Notes under the pieces: generated by a model
Database searches by the model: none
What the model was told of the DNA's origin: nothing
The model's input: only the letters and a program-made list of their open reading frames with translations
Shown: one piece after another, positions 17,553 to 19,269 of the stretch
Layout: each line of letters opens with the position of its first letter
How positions within the stretch are numbered: position 1 is the stretch's first letter
NCBI RefSeq assembly: GCF_023074835.1
Contig: NZ_JALLGW010000001.1
Coordinates: 1,302,001-1,366,000, forward strand
DNA length: 64,000 nucleotides
Direction of reading: 5' to 3'
From: Halomarina salina
Lineage (GTDB): Archaea; Halobacteriota; Halobacteria; Halobacteriales; Haloarculaceae
Made by a program: the position numbers and the translations under genes

Positions 17553-18338
17553 CTACGCTCCTTCGAGGAAGTGCCCCCACGCATTCTTGACGGCGAACGT
17601 CAGGACCGGACGACCCTTCGGGAGCGTGTAGAGGTCGCCGAGGTGGTCCGGTTCCCGGACCGTCCCGTCCCTGAGCGACTGGACGGCGGTGGCGAGCATG
17701 TCCTCCGACTCCTCGAGCAGTCGCCGCTTGACGGCCTCCCACGTCCTGAGGTCGCAGATGTCGACGGTCTTCGACGCGGCGACGCCGCCGCCGTCGAGCG
17801 TCTCGGTCAGCTGTTGAACCGTGATGCCCGCGGTCTGCCGGCCGTGGACGAACTCCCAGAACCCCATCGGCTGGCCGCGGTACTCGGTGAGGTCGCCGTG
17901 GTGGTAGCTCAGCACGCCGTGGTCGAGTTCGGAGAGGACGGGACCGACGAGGAAGCCGAAGCCGAACCTGATGGCCACGTCGACGTCGTCGCAGAACTCG
18001 TCGACCGTCTCCGCCGGAATCCGCTGTTTCCACCCGTCGACGATGGTCGGGTGGACCGACAGCTCCCGCACCGCGTCGCGGTCGACGAGCGTGTCGATAT
18101 CGACGTAGCCACGCTCGCGGCCGGTCTCGACCAGCAGGTTGTTCAGCGTGGCGACGGCCGCCCACTCGCGGAGTTCGACGGCCCGCCGGAGCGTCTCCAG
18201 GGCCGTCGCGTCGTTCTCGTACTCGTTGTAGACGATAGCGGTCACCTCGACGTCGTCGTCGGCATCGAGGAGGTACGCGAGCGCCGCGGCCTGCCAGTCC
18301 CGGACCCGCGGGCCGTTCAGGAGGAGTGCGACGTCCAT
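17553..18338 (-). CDS. Formyltransferase-family protein
   Basis: A 261-residue protein of the 10-formyl-tetrahydrofolate-dependent formyltransferase fold. The catalytic region reads LSYHHGDLTEYRGQPMGFWE (about residues 142-161), with the conserved His and the YRG motif, then GITVQQLTETLDGGGV with the conserved Asp. In methionyl-tRNA and GAR formyltransferases the residue two before the His is Asn. Here it is Ser, so the active site is a variant. It lacks the C-terminal tRNA-binding domain of Fmt, and its partner gene is a polysaccharide deacetylase. I therefore infer an amino-sugar substrate. Its ATG begins one base after the stop of that partner, so the two are one operon. Confidence 0.75.
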   Translation of the reverse strand: MDVALLLNGPRVRDWQAAALAYLLDADDDVEVTAIVYNEYENDATALETLRRAVELREWAAVATLNNLLVETGRERGYVDIDTLVDRDAVRELSVHPTIVDGWKQRIPAETVDEFCDDVDVAIRFGFGFLVGPVLSELDHGVLSYHHGDLTEYRGQPMGFWEFVHGRQTAGITVQQLTETLDGGGVAASKTVDICDLRTWEAVKRRLLEESEDMLATAVQSLRDGTVREPDHLGDLYTLPKGRPVLTFAVKNAWGHFLEGA

Positions 18339-18339
18339 C

Positions 18340-19269
18340 TCACTCCACCACCAGTTCCTCGGGGAGGTCCCGCATCGTCCGGATGCGCAACTCGTCTTCC
18401 GGGACGGTCGAGAGGTACTCCAGGTACGCGTCGAGCACCTCGAACTGGTGTGCGTTGCTGAGGTCGAACAGGTGACACCAGAGGTGGAGCGCCGTCCCCG
18501 ACTCGATGGCGCGCCGCGTCGAGCGAATCAGGTAGAACAGGTGCACCCGCTTGCGCAGGTCGAGTGGGAACGGTCGGAACGCGGGATGCGAGCGCTCTCG
18601 CTGGCCGACCGGGAGCGACCGCGCGGTCAGCGACGGGTACGTCGTGCAGTACGTCTCCAGGACGCCGTCGACGACGCGCGGCTCCCACTGCGGGTGGGGC
18701 GCGGCCGTCAGTTCCCAGAACCGCCCGAGTCGGGACGACGACTCCCTCGTCTTGGCGTACCGGGCGGTCCGAATCCCGTTGCGCCGCAGGACGTGGTTCT
18801 CGGGCTGGGAGTGCCGCGGCGGGACGAACGAGGTGACCGGGCCGTCGAGCGCCCCGTGGAGGTCCTGGACGCGTTCGAGTTCGACGTCGACGAGGCCCTC
18901 GGCGGCCCGCCGACAGAGGAGGTGGGAGAAGGTGTGAGTACACAGTTCGTGGTCGACCCGCGACGCCAGGATGCGGTCGGCCATGTCGGGGGCGTAGAAC
19001 AGCGGGTCCTCCTCGACGCCGGTGCCGGGGTCGGCGTCGTACCAGCCCGGCTCGTACGGCCCCTCGTGCGTCCCTCGACAGCGGTCGAGCAGGAGGTGGC
19101 CGACGATGTCGAACGACATGGGCACACCGCAGCGCTCGGTCGCCGACAGCAGCCGTTCGAGGTACGCCCGCTCGGGCGTGCCGTCGTCCGAGAGGTGGTC
19201 GTCTTTCGGCATGTCGTGGACGCCCCACCCGAGTTCCACTTCGACGCTCATGGTCAACACGCCCGTCAT
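18340..19269 (-). CDS. Polysaccharide deacetylase-family protein (NodB-like)
   Basis: A 309-residue protein of the NodB/polysaccharide deacetylase fold. The metal-binding HxxxH motif is [13 protein letters not shown], the next conserved barrel strand is [14 protein letters not shown], and a C-terminal His strand is [11 protein letters not shown]. At the position of the usual catalytic Asp pair the protein has [10 protein letters not shown], so one or both Asp are Glu. Family members remove N- or O-acyl groups from sugars using a divalent metal. No signal peptide is seen, so it should act in the cytoplasm. The ATG at 19269 is used because the upstream extension to 19365 is Arg/Ser-rich. It is first in the operon with the formyltransferase. 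Confidence 0.78.

Follow-up and report, generated by a model that had tools for sequence, protein, structure and literature searches.

Described deacetylase and acyltransferase systems

In rhizobial Nod factor synthesis, NodB de-N-acetylates GlcNAc and NodA then N-acylates the product with a fatty acyl group, while human NDST1 deacetylates heparan sulfate and subsequently N-sulfates it. Sugar N-formyltransferases of the WbkC, QdtF, FdtF and Rv3404c types, and the one proposed for haloarchaeal N-formyl-legionaminic acid, are understood to act after a sugar aminotransferase step. The ArnA/ArnD system combines a formyltransferase fold with a NodB-like fold. In the Caulobacter holdfast system, the NodB-type deacetylase HfsH acts on a precursor of the polysaccharide and works with the N-acyltransferase HfsK, a GNAT that is proposed in passages of one report to use the amines freed by HfsH (PMC5362036) and is placed outside the hfs locus in passages of another (PMC8449245).

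The locus of Halomarina salina analysed here couples a gene for a NodB-fold hydrolase (DA) to a gene for a folate-type formyltransferase (FT). It resembles HfsH/HfsK in joining a NodB-type deacetylase to an N-acyl-transferring enzyme, with the difference that FT is a coupled formyltransferase, and it resembles NodB/NodA in the proposed sequence of deacetylation followed by acylation, although the Nod system has no FT. NDST1 is one fused protein that carries out N-sulfation, whereas DA and FT are two genes for which formylation is proposed. FT has the fold of the WbkC, QdtF, FdtF and Rv3404c enzymes but carries Ser in place of the active-site Asn and has no adjoining aminotransferase gene in the window, that is, the whole 64,000-nucleotide stretch of DNA under study. 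With about even confidence, we propose that DA and FT together carry out a two-step exchange of acyl groups on a sugar of a surface glycan, in which deacetylation would be followed by formylation.

Layout of the Halomarina salina locus

The features of the locus are as follows.

17553-18338, minus strand: FT, 261 aa, second of the two genes; folate-type formyltransferase that lacks the Fmt C-terminal domain
18339, minus strand: single base that separates the stop of DA from the start of FT; the two genes often overlap in relatives
18340-19269, minus strand: DA, 309 aa, first of the two genes; NodB-fold hydrolase, probably a cytoplasmic de-N-acetylase of sugars

DA is therefore the upstream gene and FT the downstream gene, and the initial annotation was correct in placing them one base apart, as only base 18339 lies between them. 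The neighbouring genes in the window are BrkB-like, PhoX-like, SnoaL-like, Ribo_biogen_C (Tsr3-type) and MFS-like. These flanking genes are housekeeping or unrelated, so that the earlier statement that no other pathway genes accompany the pair holds for this window, and no glycan gene was found near the pair in the window. GC content and third-position GC of the pair are similar to those of the rest of the window, and composition thus gives no mark of recent foreign DNA. DA is 69% identical to a Halomarina rubra protein. A single contig of Halomarina rubra bears two DA-FT pairs separated by about 24 kb (L102; L074/L078); L078 was set aside as a copy of L074.

Conservation of the gene pair

The order was sampled in 392 genomes, of which 124 have FT relatives (E<=1e-20) and 215 have DA relatives (E<=1e-10). 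The DA matches listed split into a close group of 53 sequences (at least 200 bits) and a distant group (about 110 bits or less). FT lies within 500 bp of 32 of the 53 close DA homologues among the matches listed from the 392 genomes, which is above chance, and all 32 paired loci have DA followed by FT on the same strand; these counts are based on 67 FT matches (at least 130 bits, part of those listed) and 150 DA matches listed. With the start codons chosen in the alignment, the two genes overlap in 19 of 33 aligned pairs, where FT starts in the relatives were picked by rule and gap sizes are approximate. DA and FT distances were strongly correlated over 33 pairs (Mantel r 0.81, with 0 of 5000 permutations as high), a correlation that is partly expected from shared ancestry.

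The surroundings of the pair vary, with housekeeping genes in many loci and glycosyltransferases, flippases and sulfatase-like genes in others. Since the surroundings range from housekeeping to glycan clusters, no consistent glycan neighbourhood was found in the loci compared and no single pathway is common to them, and the pair, being kept across such differing surroundings, behaves as a portable unit. The comparison of neighbours across haloarchaea that the initial annotation had suggested gave recurrent pairing of DA with FT (32/53 listed) and varied, rather than shared, pathway surroundings. The frequent location of relatives among glycosyltransferases, flippases and sulfatase-like genes agrees with its prediction that the substrate is probably an envelope amino sugar. 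DA-FT is a real, conserved haloarchaeal module.

A DA homologue occurred in 106 of 124 FT genomes in comparison to 109 of 268 others, a difference confounded by kinship, and was missing from 18 of the 124 FT genomes at E<=1e-10. Of the 67 FT matches considered, among those listed, 35 had no close DA next to them. In one genus (L110-L112) FT occupies a housekeeping position with no adjacent DA, and all 16 FT genomes there carry some DA homologue; FT in these loci adjoins tRNA methyltransferase-like and NAC-like genes (named by eye), with no neighbouring deacetylase. In a genome from the genus to which Halobacterium belongs (L116:9445-12249), DA is directly followed by the gene that elsewhere lies 3' of FT (compare L089, L091 and L093), as if FT alone had been cleanly lost. 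Beyond the order no FT family member was detected, as the 12 matching genomes in a phylum sample of 294 (E<=1e-25) all belonged to the same order. A single contig scan of wider genomes returned four haloarchaeal loci, and no relatives were found in phages or viral contigs.

DA and FT could instead be co-expressed tailoring genes, each with its own target position or sugar on one glycan, as would be consistent with the occurrence of each gene alone in many genomes and with glycan clusters in which several such genes lie side by side. We consider this unlikely, because the coupling of DA to FT is tight, in fixed order and often with overlapping ends, across widely differing surroundings, and because the two proteins co-vary strongly. 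A two-step exchange on one sugar is the reading that we prefer to independent tailoring.

The DA protein

DA is a divergent NodB-type protein that scored 18.3 bits against PF01522, slightly below the cut-off of 23.1, and 45 of 46 members of its family matched this model (E<=0.01). Its AlphaFold model (pLDDT 95.3) has a clear NodB fold and aligned to 3rxz with Z 24.4 (rmsd 2.8 over 243) and to 3qbu with Z 23.9 (rmsd 2.9 over 240). The NodB-fold hydrolase of the initial annotation was thus borne out by structure matches and by the family-wide PF01522 result. The deacetylase part of NDST1 (8ccy) aligned to the DA model with Z 17.1 (rmsd 3.7 over 245).

Residues E12, H112, H116, R170, H262 and H266 are invariant in all 46 family members, and E10 is kept in 45, the remaining member having Asp. 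Metal and catalytic motifs of the CE4 kind are present, with H112/H116 as the H-x3-H motif, an acidic motif 1 and H266 as motif 5, an assignment to NodB/CE4 motifs that was made by eye; the motif-1 Asp of CE4-like deacetylases is Glu in the DA family. Among NCBIfam models, HfsH was matched by most members (34/46) and NodB by 10, all weakly (E<=0.01). DA of the window scored 17.7 bits against the HfsH equivalog NF050820, for which the cut-off is 400, and the likeness to HfsH is claimed as functional only. No hydrophobic segment above 1.6 was found in 56 DA sequences.

The Haloferax tailed virus 1 turret protein (8qpg chain TA, residues 202-413) aligned to the DA model with Z 18.1 (rmsd 2.7 over 204). 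This model-based match suggests that the particle of a haloarchaeal virus bears a NodB-like domain.

Exchange of DA partners

The survey of close DAs that lack a neighbouring FT covered 22 loci, which hold 23 DA copies (21 from the genome sample together with L075 and L077) and include one locus, L133, with FT two genes away. Six of these loci have an Acetyltransf_9-type GNAT within 700 bp of DA, with two neighbouring copies in L118 counted as one, and two have an ATP-grasp protein within that distance; elsewhere in the 22 loci neither was found. Partner families were assigned by Pfam, and the ATP-grasp matches were weak. Neither partner was adjacent in any of the 32 pair loci, which are the 36 loci first classed as paired minus four that hold FT alone (L081 and L110-L112). 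The resulting comparison of 8/22 with 0/32 gave a Fisher p of 0.0003, which serves as a guide only, the loci being related. FemAB-type GNATs, used to control for acyltransferases being generally present in glycan regions, were adjacent in 0/9 cases (0/1 at lone close-DA loci, 0/2 at distant-DA loci and 0/6 at FT loci). As the home-made gene caller used outside annotated records missed some genes, tblastn was used for gene-gap and partner counts, and the GNAT rates come from this locus survey and not from the 41 of about 150 listed GNAT matches that were picked by eye.

The FT family was absent (E<=1e-20) from the seven genomes with GNAT- or ATP-grasp-linked close DAs. Among 20 distant DA loci, a GNAT was adjacent in four and about 2.2 kb off in one, and plasmid loci in Natrononativus (L129) and Halorientalis also have DA beside a GNAT. 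Label changes on the DA tree numbered 13 for FT and at least four for GNAT. No adjacent FT, GNAT or ATP-grasp gene accompanied 13 of the 53 close DAs, among the matches listed. In Natronorubrum bangense an ATP-grasp gene is divergent from DA-FT and so stands beside DA together with FT, while in Haloterrigena KLK7 a GNAT stands beside FT with no DA; the partners are thus not strictly exclusive.

Five lone close DAs (L077, L123, L127, L128 and L131) lie beside a gene of about 510 aa of the alkaline-phosphatase/phosphodiesterase type, named by sequence likeness, and this gene may possibly be another recurrent DA partner.

Comparison with the Arn pathway

The initial annotation had read the pair as possibly Arn-like. 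In a full version of this reading, FT would formylate an amino sugar as protection or for editing, a transferase would use the sugar and DA would later remove the formyl group. Both proteins have likenesses to this system. The top Foldseek match of the FT model was 5j63, a likeness to the formyltransferase domain of ArnA, which hhalign aligned to FT with probability 95.8. DA falls in the NodB group that passages of PMC10967932 place nearest ArnD (3RXZ, 3QBU, 1Z7A and 3S6O), and these are four of its top five structure matches, ArnD itself aligning with Z 17.1 (rmsd 3.7 over 222). The same passages count 3RXZ and 3QBU among the nearest ArnD relatives and describe them as keeping all five active motif residues. 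The structural likeness of FT to ArnA is no greater than to Fmt or FDH, as the best matches are tied within 1 Z, with Z 16.4 for Fmt (1fmt; rmsd 3.7 over 209), Z 16.0 for the hydrolase domain of FDH (1s3i; rmsd 3.8 over 209) and Z 15.8 for ArnA (4wkg; rmsd 4.1 over 210).

Other comparisons argue against Arn membership. Gene order in all 32 paired loci is DA then FT, whereas in E. coli K-12 arnA precedes arnD. The pair is not accompanied by ArnT, and no ArnB- or ArnC-type genes were found beside it in the window. NCBIfam, which we take to include an ArnD model, gave no ArnD match for any of the 46 DA members (E<=0.01), and hhalign of DA with E. coli ArnD returned a probability of 1.9, so that neither family model nor profile places DA as an ArnD. 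Close DAs beside a GNAT or ATP-grasp gene in seven genomes without the FT family likewise speak against the Arn-like reading. A search of the genome for ArnB- or aminotransferase-type genes, as the initial annotation had proposed, was positive, with DegT aminotransferase genes on contigs C2 and C6; these lie near other formyltransferases of their own and away from DA-FT, and the pair is therefore not involved.

The order of the genes, their neighbours, the family models and the exchange of partners thus stand against Arn membership, which is not supported, and what remains is the likeness of fold. What survives of the initial annotation is the coupling of a formyltransferase to a NodB-fold hydrolase, with an envelope amino sugar as the probable substrate, while transient formylation of the Arn kind, or the editing of a formylated sugar, retains a low probability. 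If the acyl-exchange reading is right, a gene pair of a formyltransferase and a NodB-type protein should not automatically be taken as Arn-like.

The FT protein

FT matched PF00551 (Formyl_trans_N) over residues 119-218 with 43.5 bits (cut-off 26.1), a model that all 36 members of its family matched (E<=0.01), and scored 40.3 bits against the Fmt equivalog TIGR00460, well under the cut-off of 201.5. The profile search of its 261 aa gave no match to the tRNA-binding C-terminal domain of Fmt, for which a protein of this length has no room. The description of FT as a folate-type formyltransferase without a tRNA-binding domain was accordingly confirmed. The AlphaFold model had a pLDDT of 91.0, and one hydrophobic window above 1.6 was present in 2 of 39 FT sequences, with no clear membrane segment.

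The usual catalytic triad of folate-dependent formyltransferases is Asn-His-Asp. The full triad is absent from the FT family, in which His and Asp (H146 and D182) are kept in 36/36 members and Asn is substituted. In place of the Asn that ArnA and Fmt have, the alignment shows Ser in 34 of 36 members (Ser144 in FT), Arg in one and Gly in one, and the family signature is S-[YF]-H-H-G-D where Fmt and ArnA carry an Asn-x-His motif. The FDH hydrolase domain is also without Asn at the place equivalent to Ser144 (aligned row IIYH), and the membership of FT in PF00551 by profile therefore stands. Formyl transfer by FT is not certain, because Ser144 takes the place of the usual Asn. That FT is no sugar formyltransferase, and instead hydrolyses formyl-folate, transfers a different one-carbon or acyl group or uses a non-sugar substrate, would agree with this signature and with FDH, and is nevertheless improbable in view of the catalytic His and Asp in every member, the structural likeness to folate formyltransferases (Z about 16) and the glycan surroundings of many relatives.

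Proposed function

We return to the two-step acyl exchange, which draws on the observed pairing, order, co-variation, folds, kept catalytic residues and exchange of partners. DA, as a soluble NodB-fold metal hydrolase, would strip the N-acetyl group from a GlcNAc-type sugar that may be nucleotide- or lipid-linked and on the cytoplasmic side. FT would then move a formyl group from N10-formyl-tetrahydrofolate onto the amine freed by DA, forming a formamide despite its Ser, and a cell-surface glycan would thereby carry an N-formyl sugar. In this scheme DA would be the constant component, while the second enzyme (FT, GNAT or ATP-grasp) would be exchangeable and would set what the amine carries.

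By analogy with the described systems, a constant DA beside a neighbour that may be FT, a GNAT or an ATP-grasp protein is most simply read as DA freeing an amine that the neighbour modifies. The same pattern of partners could come from a DA that removes what its partner adds, although the partnerless DAs and the ATP-grasp partner fit this less well. More tentatively, and at somewhat below even confidence, we describe the locus as an N-acyl exchange cassette, in which one de-N-acetylase lineage would have been repeatedly recoupled with a formyltransferase of the Ser variant, an Acetyltransf_9-type GNAT or an ATP-grasp ligase, and would thereby switch the decoration of surface-glycan amines without a new aminotransferase-made sugar. 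If so, the cassette would be a route to N-formyl sugars from ready-made N-acetyl sugars, and this swap of acetyl for formyl would stand besides the route by aminotransferase and formyltransferase. It would also provide a genetic handle on surface-glycan variation in haloarchaea, where glycans matter for cell recognition and perhaps for virus attachment.

N-formyl sugars and related clusters in haloarchaea

N-formylated glycans of haloarchaea are already known, as passages of PMC6137143 report N-formyl-legionaminic acid as the terminal sugar of the Halorubrum PV6 N-glycan, propose a formyltransferase gene for it and describe lowered virus adsorption upon addition of sialic acid. A haloarchaeal plasmid formyltransferase has likewise been read as a sugar N-formyltransferase in passages of PMC11431627. 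The coupled DA-FT module appears to be undescribed in the literature searched, where no paper on the pair was found, a result that is not proof of its being unpublished.

In Haloarcula halobia, a different deacetylase gene overlaps that of a formyltransferase with the usual Asn motif, and this pair is a separate instance of the deacetylase and formyltransferase logic. Contig C2 of the Halomarina salina genome (L174:3434-9172) holds a nonulosonic-acid-like cluster with NeuC-like and NeuA-like proteins, named by eye. This cluster also includes two genes for formyltransferases and one deacetylase-like gene of the PIG-L type, and is possibly a second deacetylase and formyltransferase arrangement in the same genome.
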